From NCBI GenBank assembly GCA_017656305.1, contig JACDOG010000004.1:124001-188000 (forward strand): DNA of 64,000 bases, given 5' to 3'. Position numbers and translations under genes: made by a program. The stretch is from Thermoanaerobacteraceae bacterium. Lineage in GTDB: Bacteria > Bacillota > JADQBR01. Positions 45,055 through 59,171 of this stretch are shown here, in pieces; positions within the stretch are counted from its first letter, which is position 1, and every line of letters begins with the position of its first letter. Below the pieces are notes generated by a model. That model had not been told where the DNA came from, did no database searches, and worked only from the letters and a program-made list of their open reading frames with translations.

Positions 45055-45873
45055 TTAGATGTTAGAAATAGCTTCCTTGATTTGTGCCACAAATTGCTCC
45101 AGCTGTTCCGGCAGTATTTCAGACGGGTACTGTTCCACCAACTTAACCAGGGCACTGCCCATGATAACACCATCGAAAATGAGTGCCGCCTGTCGGGCTT
45201 GTTCTTTATTGCCAATGCCAAACCCAATCAATACCGGCAAATCGGTAATTTTTTTTACCCGGGAAACTTCTGCAGCCAACTCATTTCTCAAACTATCTCT
45301 CACCCCGGTTACTCCGGTAACCGACGTGTAGTAAATAAAACCGGAAGCATATTTACTGATTTCTTCCAACCTTCCCGTACCGGTAGTCGGAGCTGCTATA
45401 CCGATAACATGTAAACCTAATTCGGCTGCGTACCTGCGCAAGTCTCTACCGGCTTCTAAAGGCATGTCAGGTACGACAACACCATCCACGCCACATTTAA
45501 CGGCGGCTTCCACAAACCTATCCAAACCATAGACGTAAATAGTGTTGTAATATATCAGCAGCACCACGGGAGTGTCTTTCAGAGTACCGTCACTACGCAG
45601 GCCGGAAACCAGTGTTAAGACTTTATCCAAATTCACCCGGTTATTTAAAGCGCGCACGGAGGCGCGTTGAATGACGGGACCGTCGGCAAGCGGGTCAGAA
45701 AAAGGCACTCCCAGCTCAATAATATCTGCACCGCCGCGACGCATGGCTGCCATCAATTTGGCCGTATCTTCCAACGAAGGATCTCCTGCTGTTATAAAAG
45801 GCATAAACACTTTTTGTCCCTGTCTCTTCGCTACCATAAAGGCCCGGTCAATGCGGTTGCTACTATTGTCCAT
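45055..45873 (-). CDS. trpA: Tryptophan synthase alpha subunit
   Basis: Cleaves indole-3-glycerol phosphate to indole and glyceraldehyde 3-phosphate; indole is channelled to TrpB. From the ATG at 45873 it has 272 residues. [11 protein letters not shown], the active-site Glu in [19 protein letters not shown] with the second acid Asp, and [10 protein letters not shown] are all present. It overlaps trpB by 11 bp and is the last gene of the operon. Confidence 0.97.
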
Positions 45874-47104
45874 CAGCCGTATCCCCTTCCTTACAGACAG
45901 TATCGACATCCTTATCTCCCCTACCGGAGAGGTTTACAATCACAATTACTTCCCTTGCCGCATTCTGCCGGAAGTACGGGGCCATTTTTTCCAAATACGC
46001 CAGTGCGTGTGCGCTTTCCAGTGCAGGAATAATACCCTCTATCCGGCTTAACAGGTGAAAGGCACTCAAAGCCTCTCTATCAGTTACCGCCTGGTATTCC
46101 ACCCTGCCCGTATCCTTCAGCCAAGAATGCTCGGGACCAACTCCCGGGTAGTCCAACCCTGCAGAGATGGAATGGGCTTCTTGAATTTGACCGTACTTAT
46201 CCTGAAGCTGGTAGCTCAGTGCACCGTGCAGTACACCTTTTGTTCCCTTGGATAATGGTGCGGCATGCCGCCTTGACTCCAATCCTTCTCCTGCCGCTTC
46301 TACACCGATTAACCTCACACCCTTATCTCCTATGAAGGGATAAAATATCCCCATGGCATTACTGCCGCCGCCTACACACGCAATAATATAATCGGGCAGA
46401 CGTCCTTCCTTTTCCAAAATCTGTTTTCTGGTTTCTTCACCGATTACTTTTTGAAAATCACGAACCATCGTGGGATAAGGATGAGGGCCGACAACCGATC
46501 CGATGATATAATGAGTATCTTTAACATTTGTAACCCAATCCCTGATAGCTTCATTACAGGCGTCTTTCAAAGTCTGCGAACCGGTTGTCACCGGCTTTAC
46601 TTCAGCGCCTAGAAGCTGCATGCGATAGACATTTAAAGCCTGGCGCTCAATGTCTACAGCGCCCATATAAATGCAACACTGCAGTCCCAACAAGGCGCAG
46701 GCAGTAGCCGTTGCCACCCCGTGCTGCCCGGCTCCGGTTTCGGCAATAATCCGCTTTTTACCCATTTTTTTTGCCAGCAGCGCCTGTCCCAGCGCATTGT
46801 TAATTTTGTGTGCCCCGGTATGGTTAAGGTCTTCTCTTTTTAAGTAGACTTTTACTTGATAGTTTTCCGTCGAATATTTTTCCGACAGCCTGGAAGCTAA
46901 AAATAACGGAGTGGTCCTGCCACAATAGTCGTTAAGATAATACTGCAGCTCTGCCCAGAAACTGTCCTTTGCCGTGTAATACTGATACGCTTTTTCCAGC
47001 TCTTCCAGAGCTGGCATTAACGTTTCCGGTACAAACTGCCCCCCGTAGTCACCAAAATACCCGCTTTCTTTACCTTGCTTCGCTTCCACCCGAGAAAAAA
47101 TCAT
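45863..47104 (-). CDS. trpB: Tryptophan synthase beta subunit
   Basis: PLP enzyme that joins indole to serine. It has 413 residues, starts [21 protein letters not shown] and carries the PLP Lys100 in [14 protein letters not shown]. The [14 protein letters not shown] phosphate loop and the [10 protein letters not shown] ending are typical of the TrpB1 form. Its ATG has GAGG upstream and lies inside the 3' end of trpF. Confidence 0.98.
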
Positions 47105-47792
47105 GGTTTTTCACCTCTCCCTTTACGGCTTTAATGAAGGCAGCTATCTTTTCAAAGCTTTTTTTGCCAGGGCTTACTTCTATTCCTGACGACACGTCCA
47201 TCCCCAGCGGCGTAATGCGGGTTAACAACTTGCCAACATTACCGCTGTGAAGACCCCCGGCGATAATAACGGGTTTACTGGGCCAGCGGTTGGCAAATTC
47301 TATCGCCAACTCCCAGTTAAATATTTTTCCCGTTCCCCCTAATCTTTGTGGTACATAAGCATCCAGCAACACCGCATCCACGTATGGATGATAGGCGGGT
47401 ATTTGCTCAAGTACCTCCGGCCCGGAAACGGAAAAGGCTTTTACCAGAAAGGACCAGGAACTGCCTTGATCAACCGCCAGCATATTTCTTAGTTCCCGAC
47501 AGTAAGCGGCAGTTTCCTCACCGTGCAACTGAACAGCACCCAGCGAAACCTCACGATAAATCTGTACTACCTGCTGCAACGGTTGGTTGGCAAAAACACC
47601 TACAGCACAGTGTTTTCTTGTTTTGACTACCCCGGCAATCTTTTTTGCCTGCTCCACAGACACATATCTGGGAGTATTCTTAACAAATACCAGGCCGATA
47701 GCATCTGCCCCCTGCTTTAATGCATACTCTGCCAGGCAAGCATCAGTCATCCCACAGCACTTAACCAACGGACGGGTCACAGGTTTCACCAC
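47070..47792 (-). CDS. trpF: Phosphoribosylanthranilate isomerase
   Basis: Amadori isomerase of the Trp pathway. It has about 240 residues, somewhat longer than most. [27 protein letters not shown] carries the catalytic Cys, and the Asp appears in [19 protein letters not shown]. The start is uncertain: a GTG at 47792 has AGAGG 10 nt upstream, the GTG at 47789 is close behind, and a TTG at 47828 is possible. The gene overlaps the end of trpC and of trpB. Confidence 0.93.
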
Positions 47793-48612
47793 CCGGAACC
47801 GACCTCTTACCGTTCCTGTACCTGTCAAACGTGTCCTTAAAACCTTTAATAATTGCCGCGGGTCTACTGCAGGTCATCAACACTTCACCCACCAGCACCC
47901 CATCATAACCAGCAGCGGCTATTCTTTTTATATCAGCAGAGTTTTTGACCCCGCTCTCCGCTATTGTTACTGTTTCCTCTGGCAGCCGCTTTGCCAGGCG
48001 AATACAGGTATCCAGGTCCACTGTGAAGCTGCTTAAATTGCGATTATTAACACCGACCAGCGGCGGAGAGAACTTCATCACCTTATCCAATTCCCGTTCA
48101 TCATGCACTTCTACCAAACAATCCATCCCCAATTGTTGTGCTTCATAGTACAATGCCTGCAGCTGCCTGTCGTCCAATAAAGCTGCTATCAGTAACACTG
48201 CTGAGGCGCCGGCAGCACGTCCGCGGTATATCTGCCACGGGTGAATAATAAAATCCTTTTGCAGTACAGGCAGTGTCGTCTGTTCCTTAACCTGTGCCAG
48301 CTTTTGGTAACTGCCATCGAAATAATACCGTTCAGTAAGAACAGAAATAGCAGTGGCACCTCCCCTTTCGTACTCTGACACCCTGCTTTTCAGGTCGTAA
48401 TCTGCAGTTAATCTTCCCCGAGAAGGAGAGGCATACTTAATTTCAGCAATAATTTTACAGTCCGATCCTCCTTCCATCACCTTTTGAAACCTGTTCGGAG
48501 CCGCCGCCTGACTTGCTATCTGTTTTTCCAAAATTTTTAACGGTATTGCTTCCATTCCTTCAGCTACTTCCTGCTTTTTCAATGCCAGTATTTTTCGTAG
48601 AAAACTAAACAT
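47761..48612 (-). CDS. trpC: Indole-3-glycerol phosphate synthase
   Basis: Closes the indole ring by decarboxylation. From the ATG at 48612 (CGGAGGAC upstream) the protein has 283 residues. It has IAEIKYASPSRG with the catalytic Lys, VLTERYYFDGSYQKL, VLQKDFIIHPWQI and NNRNLSSFTVDLDTC, the landmarks of this TIM barrel. The longer reading to 48729 is rejected. It overlaps trpD by 8 bp. Confidence 0.97.
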   Translation of the reverse strand: MFSFLRKILALKKQEVAEGMEAIPLKILEKQIASQAAAPNRFQKVMEGGSDCKIIAEIKYASPSRGRLTADYDLKSRVSEYERGGATAISVLTERYYFDGSYQKLAQVKEQTTLPVLQKDFIIHPWQIYRGRAAGASAVLLIAALLDDRQLQALYYEAQQLGMDCLVEVHDERELDKVMKFSPPLVGVNNRNLSSFTVDLDTCIRLAKRLPEETVTIAESGVKNSADIKRIAAAGYDGVLVGEVLMTCSRPAAIIKGFKDTFDRYRNGKRSVPGGETCDPSVG

Positions 48613-49678
48613 GAGCTGTCCTCCGTTGTATACCGAAGTTTTCCCGGTCCCTGTCAAGGCTTTTCCGGCGCAGCTCCCGGGTAACTGAAACCAACTGCTC
48701 CAACTTGCGCTCGGCCAATCCTTTGTCAATTAATTCAGTTGCAAAAGCCAGTCCCTCTTTAAGACTGCACACCTTGCCTGCAACATAAAATGCGGCAGCA
48801 GCATTTAACAGCACTACTTCTCTCCTGGGCCCCCGTTCTTCACCGGATAATATCTTTTTGGTAATTTCTGCGTTCTCCTGTGCAGTACCGCCTATTAAAT
48901 CATCTATTGTACAGCAGTTTAGACCCAATTCTCCGGGTAAAATCCGGTAGCTGGTCACCGTACCGCTGCTAATCTCACTAACATAAGTAGGCCCGGTTAA
49001 GGTAATCTCGTCCATACCGTCAGACCCGTGCACTACCATGGCACGCTCAACACCCATATTTTTCAAAGCATTAGCCAAAATACCGGTTAACCGGCGCTGG
49101 TAGACACCGACTATTTGAAACTTAGCAGCAGCAGGGTTGGTCAGGGGACCCAGTAAATTAAAGATGGACCGAAACCCCAACTCCTTTCGGGGCCCCGCCG
49201 CATACTTCATTGCTTTATGAAATGTAGGAGCAAACAAGAACCCAATTCCTACCTCCTCCAAACAAAACCGCACCAATTCAGGCGGGAGGGTAATATCTAC
49301 CCCCAGGGCTTCCAAAACGTCCGCACTGCCGCTCCGACTGGATACAGAACGGTTTCCGTGCTTTGCCACCGGCACTCCACCGGCTGCCACCACCAGTGCT
49401 ACCGTGGTGGAAATATTAAAGGTATTTAAATAGTCACCGCCGGTTCCACATGTGTCTACCACAGACTGCCTAATAAAAAAAGGAGCCGCTTTCGCCCGCA
49501 TGGCCTTGGCACAGCCGGCTATTTCTTCGGGAGTTTCTCCTTTCATTCTCAATGCTGTCATAAAAGCCGCTATTTGGGCAGGAGTAGCCTCCCCGGCCAT
49601 AATTAAACTCATGGCTTCCTGCGCTTCATTTTGGGATAAATTTTGCCCGCCAATAAGTTTATTAATAGTTGCCTGCAT
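48605..49678 (-). CDS. trpD: Anthranilate phosphoribosyltransferase
   Basis: Adds PRPP to anthranilate. It has 357 residues with the PRPP loop VDTCGTGGDYLNTFNIS, the KHGNRSVSSRSGSADVLEALG segment and GPRKELGFRSIFNLLGPLTNP. The ATG has GGAGAG upstream. It is a stand-alone enzyme here; the trpG glutaminase is a separate gene 70 bp upstream. Confidence 0.98.
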   Translation of the reverse strand: MQATINKLIGGQNLSQNEAQEAMSLIMAGEATPAQIAAFMTALRMKGETPEEIAGCAKAMRAKAAPFFIRQSVVDTCGTGGDYLNTFNISTTVALVVAAGGVPVAKHGNRSVSSRSGSADVLEALGVDITLPPELVRFCLEEVGIGFLFAPTFHKAMKYAAGPRKELGFRSIFNLLGPLTNPAAAKFQIVGVYQRRLTGILANALKNMGVERAMVVHGSDGMDEITLTGPTYVSEISSGTVTSYRILPGELGLNCCTIDDLIGGTAQENAEITKKILSGEERGPRREVVLLNAAAAFYVAGKVCSLKEGLAFATELIDKGLAERKLEQLVSVTRELRRKSLDRDRENFGIQRRTAHV

Positions 49679-49748
49679 ATTTTCTCTCCTCTCCTTTACT
49701 CTACTCAGCTATTCTCTTAAAAAAACTTTCCTCTAAACAGAAAACCGC

Positions 49749-50315
49749 CTAATGATAAAAAAAGTTACTAATCAGCCTCTTTCCTTCCCTGGTTAAAATG
49801 GATTCCGGGTGAAACTGCACACCCCATACGGGGTACTTCCGGTGTTTAACAGCCATTATCTCACCGTCCTCTGTTTCAGCCAAAACACCAAGTTCAGAAG
49901 GCAAGCCATCACGCGACGCTAGCAACGAGTGATATCTTGTGGCTGCAAAGGGATTAGTTAGCCCTTGAAAAATGCCTTCTTGGCTGTGATAAATACGTGA
50001 CACTTTACCGTGCACCGGTTTAGAAGCCTTTATCACCTTCCCGCCGTAGACCTCCACTATGCATTGATGTCCCAGGCAAACACCTAAAATGGGAACAGCC
50101 GGTCCGAAGTACTCTATGAATTCTTTAGAAATTCCAGCTTCTGCAGGGGTACCGGGGCCGGGCGAAATAACTATGTGGCTGGGCTTGATATTTACAGCTT
50201 CATGTAAAGTGACCCGGTCATTACGTTTTACCACCATGGGCAGTCCCAATTCCCCTATCATTTGTACCAGGTTATAAGTAAAGGAATCATAATTATCTAT
50301 TACCAAAACATTCAT
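49749..50315 (-). CDS. trpG: Anthranilate synthase glutaminase subunit
   Basis: Provides ammonia from glutamine to the TrpE active site. It has 188 residues. The nucleophile Cys80 lies in LGVCLGHQC and the His-Glu pair in VQFHPESIL. The ATG overlaps the stop of the aroF-trpE fusion gene by 4 bp, so the two subunits are made together. In Bacillus this subunit is also shared with folate synthesis; whether that holds here cannot be seen. Confidence 0.96.
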
Positions 50316-52702
50316 TGCTTCTCACCTCGCGCCATGGCTATTGCCTGAAACATTGCCTGGGCTTTATTCAAAGTTTCCTGATATTCCTTTTCCGGCTTTG
50401 AATCGGCCACAATCCCTGCTCCTGTTTGTACATAAGCCCGGCCCTGGTGCACTGTTACGGAACGAATATTAATACAGATATCCATTTGCCCGCTGTAAGC
50501 TAAATATCCCACCATTCCGGCATATGGTCCCCGTGGTGTTTTCTCCAGTTCCCTGATAATTTCTATGGCACGTATTTTCGGGGCACCAGATACGGTACCG
50601 GCCGGAAAAGCTGCAGCTAAAACATCCAGCGCATCCTTACCGGGCAGAACTCTTCCCGTTACACAGGAAACCAAATGCATCACATGGGAAAAATACTCCA
50701 CTTGGGAAAACTCTTCCACGGTCACTGTCCCGAACCGGCAAACCCGGCCTAAATCGTTACGACCTAAATCTACAAGCATAACATGTTCCGCCTGTTCCTT
50801 TTCATCACTTCTCAGGTCTTCAGTTAACAACAGGTCTTCCTCCCTATCACGTCCCCGTTTCCTTGTTCCGGCTATGGGACGCAACTGAGCCTGGCCGTTT
50901 TCCAAGCGAACCAGCATTTCCGGGGAAGCCCCTACCAGGCACAGGTCTTCGAGTTGTAGGTAAAACATATATGGAGAAGGATTGATAGCTTTCAGGCAGC
51001 GTAATAACGCCAGCGGGGCAAAGTCAGCCGGCAGCGAAAAACGCTGTGACAGCACGATTTGGAAGGCATCTCCACAGTCAATATATTCCTTTGCTTTTTG
51101 GACAGCGTTACAAAACTGTTCTTTGGTGAAATTACTGGTAATTTTTAATTCTGCAGGGTTACCGCCAGGTGATACCGCCGGCAGCTGTACATTCTTTTTC
51201 ATCCGGCCCAGAATGCTGCGTATCAGCAACTGTGCCCGGTGGTATTCTTTTTCCGGATTATCTCCCGGAAGTGTATTCACCACTACCTTAAGCGTACTTT
51301 TTAAATGGTCAAAGATTAACAGCGACCTGGTAAATATCATGTTAATATCAGCCAAACCCCCGGGTTCTAAGGTTTTTGCCAGTACGGGCTCAAAATAACG
51401 TACTCCTTCAAAACCGATATAACCCACGGCACCGCCGAAAAAGCGGGGCAAATTCCGGCCCGTTTCCGCCGTATATTGTTGTAGTAGTTTTCTTAACTCT
51501 GCTAAAGGTTGGTCATTGTCCCTTTCTTCCCACTGGCAAATTTTATTGGGGAAAGCGTCCTGCTCACCGGGTTTACCGAGTTTAACCTTGCTGCCCGCCG
51601 CCTGAAATACGAGATACGGGTCATTGCCAACAAAAGAGTAACGGGCAATTTGGTCATTTCCCTCGACACTTTCCAAAATAAAGGAATAAGGTGTCTGCCC
51701 CAGTTTTAACAAAGCCGAAGCAGGTGTTTCATTGCCAATCATTACCTCCGTATACACCGGAATGACTTTGTCGCCCCTGGTAACTTTCTGACAATACTGA
51801 CGGTAATCGGGAATTACTTTGACACCTTCTAAAAATTGCACAGTACCAATTGCCGGCTTGTATTTATCCCGCTTTGACGGCATTTGCCGCCCCGCCGCAT
51901 CGACAAACGGGCGCAGCTCTTCTACCAAATGCTTAAACTCTTGTATAGTCAATGATTGTTTGCCGTCACACAAAGCATTGTCAGGGGAAGGATGCACTTC
52001 AATCAACAGGCCGTCAGCCCCGGCGGCAACAGCAGCTTTCGCCATAGGTAGAACCAGGTCTGCCCGCCCGGTACCGTGACTGGGGTCCACAACCACCGGT
52101 AATTCCGTACGAGACTTGGCCAGGGGTACGGCACTTAAGTCCAAGGTAAAACGGGTAGCAGACTCATAAGTACGGATACCCCGCTCGCACAGGATAATCT
52201 GGTGATTGCCCTCCACAAGCAAGTACTCGGCTGCATATAACCACTCTTCCACAGTGGCAGACAGGCCTCTTTTAAGCAGTACGGGTTTGTTTAATTCCCC
52301 CAGTCTCCGCAACAGTTCGAAATTTTGCATGTTGCGGGCGCCTACCTGCAGTAAATCGGCATAAGCCGCTACCTGCTCCACGTGAACCGTGCTGACCACC
52401 TCGGTAACCACCGGCAGTCCGGACACCTCCTTAGCCCGCAGCAGCAGGTCCAGTCCATGTTCTCCCAATCCCTGAAAGGAATGAGGGGAACTCCGGGGTT
52501 TGTAAGCACCACCCCTCAGGACACTTGCACCCGCCTGAGCTACGGCAGCAGCTGTAGCCAACAGCTGCTGTTCGCTCTCCACGGCACAGGGCCCGGCCAT
52601 GATCTGAAATTCCTTGCCGCCAAAAAGAACATTGCCCACCTTGACAACACTGTTCTTAACACCATTCCCTGGTCCCTGGTAACCAGCCTTTTCCACGCTC
52701 AT
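50312..52702 (-). CDS. DAHP synthase - anthranilate synthase component I fusion
   Basis: One continuous 796-codon gene. Residues about 18-272 are a type I-beta DAHP synthase (AroF/AroG): AGPCAVES with metal-ligand Cys39, [26 protein letters not shown], His209 in DPSHG, Glu235 in EVHPSP and Asp246 in LCDGKQSL. After a polar linker (about 271-292), residues about 293-796 form a complete TrpE. This part has the Trp-feedback motif ILESVEG (342-348), [16 protein letters not shown] and [15 protein letters not shown]. The usual regulatory ferredoxin-like or chorismate-mutase domain of DAHP synthase is missing. An ATG at codon 274 with a weak G-rich site could allow separate TrpE initiation. Confidence 0.93.
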
Positions 52703-52750: not shown

Positions 52751-52787
52751 AAAAAACCGGCAGACCCGCCGAATCGAGGTCTGCCGG
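52751..52787 (-). terminator. Second leader terminator, just before aroF-trpE
   Basis: A perfect 10-bp GC-rich stem (52757-52766 with 52778-52787) with an 11-nt loop, followed on the minus strand by six T. The arm plus T-run (plus-strand 52751-52760) is an exact inverted repeat of 52718-52727, so a competing hairpin is possible after readthrough. Confidence 0.88.
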
Positions 52788-52856: not shown

Positions 52857-52880
52857 AAAAAATCCAGGCCGCAGCCTGGA
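52857..52880 (-). terminator. First leader terminator of the trp operon
   Basis: A 7-bp stem (52863-52869 with 52874-52880), 4-nt loop, then six T on the minus strand. It begins 15 nt after the TRAP-like site. An upstream GGAAAA/TTTTCC hairpin with AGCC/GGCT outside it would consume the left arm and act as antiterminator. Confidence 0.75.
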
Positions 52881-52894
52881 AAATATACTTTTCC

Positions 52895-52953
52895 CTGTGC
52901 TCGGCTTTGCTCAATCTCATCTTTTCTTAACTCGACTCAGCTAGGTCAACCTA
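52895..52953 (-). promoter_or_regulatory. Predicted TRAP-binding triplet array
   Basis: Reading the leader 5' to 3' from 52953, twelve triplets occur at a period of 5 nt (one spacer is 3 nt instead of 2). Seven are GAG or TAG, three AAG, one CAG and one TGA. This is the layout of a binding site for the 11-subunit Trp-sensing protein TRAP (MtrB), which wraps NAG repeats with 2-3-nt spacers. It overlaps the potential antiterminator. No mtrB gene lies in this window. Confidence 0.7.
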
Positions 52954-52983
52954 TAAACTAAACCAAAAACCAAATTTTGTATA

Positions 52984-53013
52984 ATTATAACAGGGTCCAA
53001 ACCAAAAAGTCAA
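52984..53013 (-). promoter_or_regulatory. Promoter of the trp operon
   Basis: On the minus strand TTGACT (53008-53013) and TATAAT (52984-52989) are 18 nt apart, and the -10 is extended by TGT. The -35 begins 13 bp after the fetB stop. Start of transcription is expected near 52977. Confidence 0.85.
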
Positions 53014-59041: not shown

Positions 59042-59068
59042 ATAGCATACCTTGCCTGACAAACTATC

Positions 59069-59163
59069 TCCTCCCTCCGCTGGCATTACCCAGTTCAGGT
59101 TATTTGGGTCGGAACAATACAGTTCCCTCTCAGCCGGATTTACTCCAGCTCCCCAGGTTTGTA
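59069..59163 (-). promoter_or_regulatory. TPP riboswitch (THI element)
   Basis: On the minus strand the THI-box core is clear: CTGAGAGGGA in the pyrimidine-sensing arm, then CCGACCC and ACCTGAACTGGGTAATGCCA with GCGGAGGGA. The paired outer stem starts near 59160. It senses thiamine pyrophosphate and, with the terminator downstream, should switch off the transporter operon when thiamine is plentiful. Confidence 0.95.
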
Positions 59164-59171
59164 TTACTTAT

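Follow-up and report, generated by a model that had tools for sequence, protein, structure and literature searches.

In the window (the whole 64,000-nucleotide stretch of DNA analysed here), a trp operon is very probably under the control of TRAP, the Trp-activated, RNA-binding ring protein encoded by mtrB. Control would be exerted at two sites of a single transcript: a predicted array of NAG triplets in the leader and a second predicted array laid over the Shine-Dalgarno sequence of trpD. To our knowledge, TRAP has been studied almost only in Bacillus. The operon, read entirely from the minus strand, opens with a DAHP synthase-TrpE fusion of 796 aa (50312..52702), which is followed by trpG (49749..50315, also used as a query), trpD, and then trpC, trpF, trpB and trpA (45055..48612). 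The genes trpC, trpB and trpA each begin before the gene in front of them has ended, with overlaps that range from a few bases to some tens.

The triplet array of the trp leader

The predicted TRAP-binding array of the leader lies at 52888..52943 (minus strand), behind a sigma-70 promoter of the operon (52984..53013, minus strand; TTGACT-18-TATAAT with a TG extension, 11/12 matches). With the start of the RNA assumed at 52976, the array corresponds to nt 34-89. It consists of 11 triplets, in the order UAG GAG GAG AAG AAG GAG GAG AAG GAG CAG AAG, with steps of 5, 5, 5, 5, 5, 6, 5, 5, 5 and 7. This array is genuine and far above chance: in a chain scan of the window it scored 7.5, whereas no chain in 60 simulated strands of 64 kb scored above 4.5. 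Moreover, a genome-wide search for five exact DAG triplets at 5-nt spacing returned a single weak match besides the arrays of the leader and of trpD, and the reversed-pattern control of the same search gave no match in the whole genome. A sequence-only reading of this DNA had placed twelve NAG triplets with a 5-nt period at 52895-52953. The array itself stands, but its chain holds 11 triplets, the twelfth being an isolated UAG at 52953, and its coordinates are here corrected to 52943-52888. Not all triplets are GAG or UAG, four being AAG and one CAG, which are weaker than GAG/UAG. Apart from these five and a final step of 7, the array has the 9-11 NAG triplets, mainly GAG/UAG, and the 2-3 nt spacers by which TRAP-controlled trp attenuators are recognized.

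The same genome carries mtrB (C7:93333-93533, 138 bits), the gene on which the sequence-only reading had made its proposal depend. The product scored 142 bits with the NCBIfam TRAP equivalog (cut-off 117) and aligned over nearly its full length with solved TRAP chains. The residues that we take to contact Trp or RNA in B. subtilis (T25, T30, K37, Q47, T49, K56 and R58) are all kept in the alignment. The gene sits between coaD and a DUF2007-like gene, which is followed by pfkA (coaD and pfkA were named from their sequences). The idea that TRAP is uncommon in clostridia does not hold for this group, in which mtrB was found in 55 of the 101 relatives searched; a follow-up search for the protein disclosed no convincing mtrB in 12 mtrB-negative genomes. 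No match to the anti-TRAP gene rtpA (PF15777) was obtained in the own genome. Weak anti-TRAP matches in relatives were discarded, most of them falling in frames of about 380 aa that are probably DnaJ zinc fingers.

For 51 genomes, we scored the 500 nt that lie ahead of the first trp gene, counting as an array any chain with a score of at least 4. Leader arrays were present at 35 of the 40 mtrB-positive loci and at none of the 11 mtrB-negative ones (Fisher 9e-8, a value that overstates independence, as do the other Fisher values, because the genomes are related). The array statistics were compiled after some of these loci had already shown the pattern. At this threshold, five mtrB-positive genomes lacked a leader array and 15 a trpD array. 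No chain occurred on the antisense strands of the loci that were displayed. The triplet periodicity is thus retained in related leaders, and the presence of mtrB in the genome together with its co-occurrence with the arrays supports the reading of the leader as a site of TRAP attenuation. On these grounds we regard control of the leader by TRAP as highly likely, and the leader taken by itself is, to judge from its sequence, a known kind of TRAP attenuator. The TRAP regulon becomes readable in the sequences of dozens of families, for which the mtrB-less relatives serve as a natural control. One mtrB-negative genome, G083, displayed several strong arrays; its assembly is fragmented (450 contigs) and may simply be missing the gene.

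A different explanation would be that the triplets are incidental and that attenuation depends on a T-box or on a leader peptide with ribosome stalling. T-box leaders do occupy the trp locus in six mtrB-negative relatives, and also in three mtrB-positive genomes that lack an array in the leader (G008, G044 and G063), and like the array described here they control trp operons by a choice between terminator and antiterminator. The T-box senses uncharged tRNA and occurs at the trp locus mainly in mtrB-negative relatives. It was rejected for this leader because Rfam gave no match (RF00230) in the window. As to a leader peptide, a frame of 73 codons (52920-52699, minus strand) shares sequence with the leader and runs up to the start codon of the fusion, on which it ends, but it was rejected too, since it contains a single Trp codon; nor has it an obvious Shine-Dalgarno sequence. 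With the arrays co-occurring with mtrB and no T-box found by Rfam, this explanation is largely refuted and we consider it very improbable. The stop of the 73-codon frame overlaps the start of the fusion as ATGA, probably by chance.

A second array at trpD

The window scan that scored the leader chain also found a second predicted TRAP-binding array at 49684..49716 (minus strand), directly before trpD (48605..49678, minus strand), which makes this gene a predicted target of translational repression. Its seven triplets (GAG UAG GAG GAG AAG GAG GAG) are separated by exact 2-nt spacers, and it ends on the Shine-Dalgarno sequence, 5 nt before the ATG. It is known that TRAP represses the translation of trpG and trpP in B. 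subtilis (PMC4347634), and the trpD array is of the same type, with triplets that overlap the Shine-Dalgarno sequence and a predicted ribosome block. The difference is that the target here would be trpD within the trp operon, so that one transcript would carry both a transcriptional and a translational site.

The site is conserved in relatives. When the region from 100 nt upstream to 25 nt inside the gene was scored, trpD arrays were present in 24 of 39 mtrB-positive and in none of nine mtrB-negative relatives (Fisher p 0.0016, again overstated by relatedness). The other internal trp gene starts of mtrB-positive genomes (trpG, trpC, trpF, trpB and trpA) gave no array in 127 cases (p 5e-19 versus trpD). 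These figures bear on the simpler view that the array is a purine-rich, repeated Shine-Dalgarno region and no TRAP site, a view favored by the fact that the last two triplets are the Shine-Dalgarno sequence itself (GGAGAGGAGAG). The absence of arrays at the other trp starts argues against a mere Shine-Dalgarno effect, as does their absence at trpD in mtrB-negative relatives, and only two of the seven triplets reach the Shine-Dalgarno core, the five that precede it following one another at exactly 5 nt. We therefore judge the purine-rich repeat improbable and a real TRAP site at trpD, as predicted, very likely. If so, the early step (DAHP synthase and anthranilate synthase) would be controlled through transcription, and translational control would be added for the later steps, with one sensor for both.

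In one relative (G008, locus L215) a T-box leader before trpE accompanies a TRAP-like array at trpD, and its trp operon possibly has two sensors of Trp status.

Terminators and RNA folding

The sequence-only reading had placed an intrinsic terminator straight behind the triplets, and one is indeed found there: T1 (52863..52880, minus strand), with a 7-bp stem and U6, at nt 98-113 of the leader (start at 52976). This position is common among mtrB-positive relatives, most of whose leaders have a terminator behind the array, usually at a distance of 5-32 nt. A second terminator, T2 (52757..52787, minus strand; nt 190-220, 54 nt 5' of the start codon), which is stronger than T1 and was absent from the earlier reading, is predicted to be an attenuator switched by TRAP. 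Folding of the 227-nt RNA gave T2 a predicted probability of 0.004 when the RNA was free and of 0.997 when the array was blocked. The low value in free RNA arises because the array pairs both with the spacer between T1 and T2 and with the hairpin of T2, and the predicted long-range pairing is GACCUAGCUGAGUCGAG / CUCGAUUCGGCGGGUC. When the spacer, the array, all the upstream RNA or the inter-triplet letters were shuffled, T2 fell below 0.05 in 0, 0, 1 and 0 of 100 shuffles, respectively. Folding of four relatives (G001, G002, G027 and G014) disclosed no switch of this type at their second terminators, and the T2 switch is therefore a prediction for the leader of the window alone.

T1 behaved differently. 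At equilibrium it is predicted to form with or without TRAP, and only while the 3' end of the RNA stands at nt 104-110 is its 5' arm paired upstream with a probability of 0.6-0.78 in free RNA and below 0.1 in bound RNA. The pairing that would act as its antiterminator reached 0.58, compared with 0.55 for shuffled arrays. Thus, of the proposal that a likely antiterminator overlaps the array, what remains at T1 is a weak one that does no better than shuffled arrays, T2 being the better predicted switch. Across 22 leaders, in which pairing was computed on the terminator 5' arm before the 3' arm emerges, this arm paired with the array region with a mean probability of 0.70 in free RNA. Blocking the array lowered this mean to 0.38, and shuffled arrays gave 0.58; the signal of free over shuffled arrays is modest (p = 5e-4).

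These results can be read in two ways. The folding predictions give T2 an even chance of being the main TRAP switch of the leader, and the two tandem terminators may both be switched by the one leader array, with T2 depending on long-range pairing. On the other hand, TRAP could follow the plain B. subtilis route and control T1 only, through an antiterminator/attenuator pair or TRAP-assisted termination, T2 being a hairpin for backup or processing. The layout that most relatives share and the pairing of the T1 5' arm at nt 104-110 speak for this route, and so does the resemblance to the B. subtilis leader, in which the attenuator lies at +108 to +133 and TRAP terminates in vivo even without the attenuator hairpin (PMC3913778). 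Against it, the T2 switch is specific to this array, whereas the pairing at T1 is not. We consider control through T1 only a serious possibility, if short of an even one.

Compared with the trpEDCFBA leader of B. subtilis (PMC3913778), the leader described here shares mtrB, 11 triplets with mostly 2-nt spacers lying early in the RNA, and a terminator right behind them. It differs in that the first gene is the DAHP synthase-TrpE fusion and trpG lies inside the operon, in the second terminator with its predicted long-range antiterminator, in a higher number of AAG and CAG triplets, and in that no anti-TRAP was found in the genome.

Taking as computed the arrays, mtrB, their conservation and co-occurrence, and the terminators, we infer binding, the response to Trp, RBS occlusion, coupling and the choice of the working terminator, and propose the following mechanism. 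With Trp in excess, TRAP would wrap the 11 leader triplets and keep them from pairing with the downstream RNA, so that transcription would end at T1 and/or T2, before the fusion gene. On transcripts that escape, TRAP would wrap the 7-triplet array on the trpD Shine-Dalgarno sequence and block translation of trpD, and probably also that of trpCFBA by coupling to trpD. When Trp is scarce, the free triplets would pair downstream, T2 could not form and both blocks would be lifted.

The DAHP synthase-TrpE fusion

The fusion frame matches DAHP synthase over residues 26-264 and TrpE over 325-780. No aroF-trpE fusion was detected in any other of the 101 genomes searched, and among the best 80 loci of the genome collection none matches across both parts. 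Frame lengths had suggested fusions in G049 and G087, and these were rejected, aroF and trpE being separate frames there. The unfused aroF-trpE order behind an array recurs in G014, G049, G071, G078 and G087. The fusion is real, as had been proposed together with Trp control of the shikimate entry step, and is predicted to subject one isozyme of DAHP synthase directly to control by Trp. The control would extend to that isozyme only, since a second, separate DAHP synthase is present in the own genome. The TrpE part keeps an ILES motif, which resembles the LLES feedback motif, and feedback at the enzyme level is possible for the fusion. Elsewhere in the window, a TPP riboswitch (59055-59165, minus strand) precedes the gene of a small thiamine-binding-type protein and ABC transporter genes.

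The wider TRAP regulon

In the own genome, two TRAP-like arrays lie upstream of the trpP transporter gene (G000:C27:448-912, minus strand), and one of them covers the Shine-Dalgarno sequence and the start codon. In relatives, trpP arrays were found in 19 of 21 mtrB-positive and one of nine mtrB-negative genomes, the single exception being G083. The own genome also displays an array followed by a terminator before pabA-pabB (G000:C7 near 112081; L227, reverse strand, ~2920-2964), which suggests Trp control of folate genes. Arrays at iorA were present in 11 of 24 mtrB-positive versus none of six mtrB-negative relatives (p 0.06; loci L259-L270), and the in-gene control windows of this comparison never scored above 3.0. 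If TRAP represses iorA at high Trp, a role in synthesis of Trp would be more likely than one in its breakdown, and indolepyruvate ferredoxin oxidoreductase would be biosynthetic in these bacteria, leading from indoleacetate to Trp. In the own genome, neither iorA nor the second DAHP synthase nor mtrB has a TRAP array.

Taken across the branch, the chances are evenly balanced that TRAP is a broad Trp regulator, with a conserved dual-site operon (leader plus trpD) and pabA-pabB and iorA as added targets. Neither of these two is listed as a TRAP target in the openly accessible TRAP papers covered by our search, which found nothing useful on TRAP outside Bacillus. As predicted from the sequences, the trpD site, together with the tandem terminators and the wider regulon, makes up a variant that is undescribed in those papers.

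Other arrays were seen in single relatives. In G075, iorA follows closely on mtrB, and the interval that separates them holds an array. TRAP-like arrays also precede a trpB gene in G093 (L050) and, in G055 (L051), an aminotransferase gene that resembles serine-pyruvate aminotransferase.
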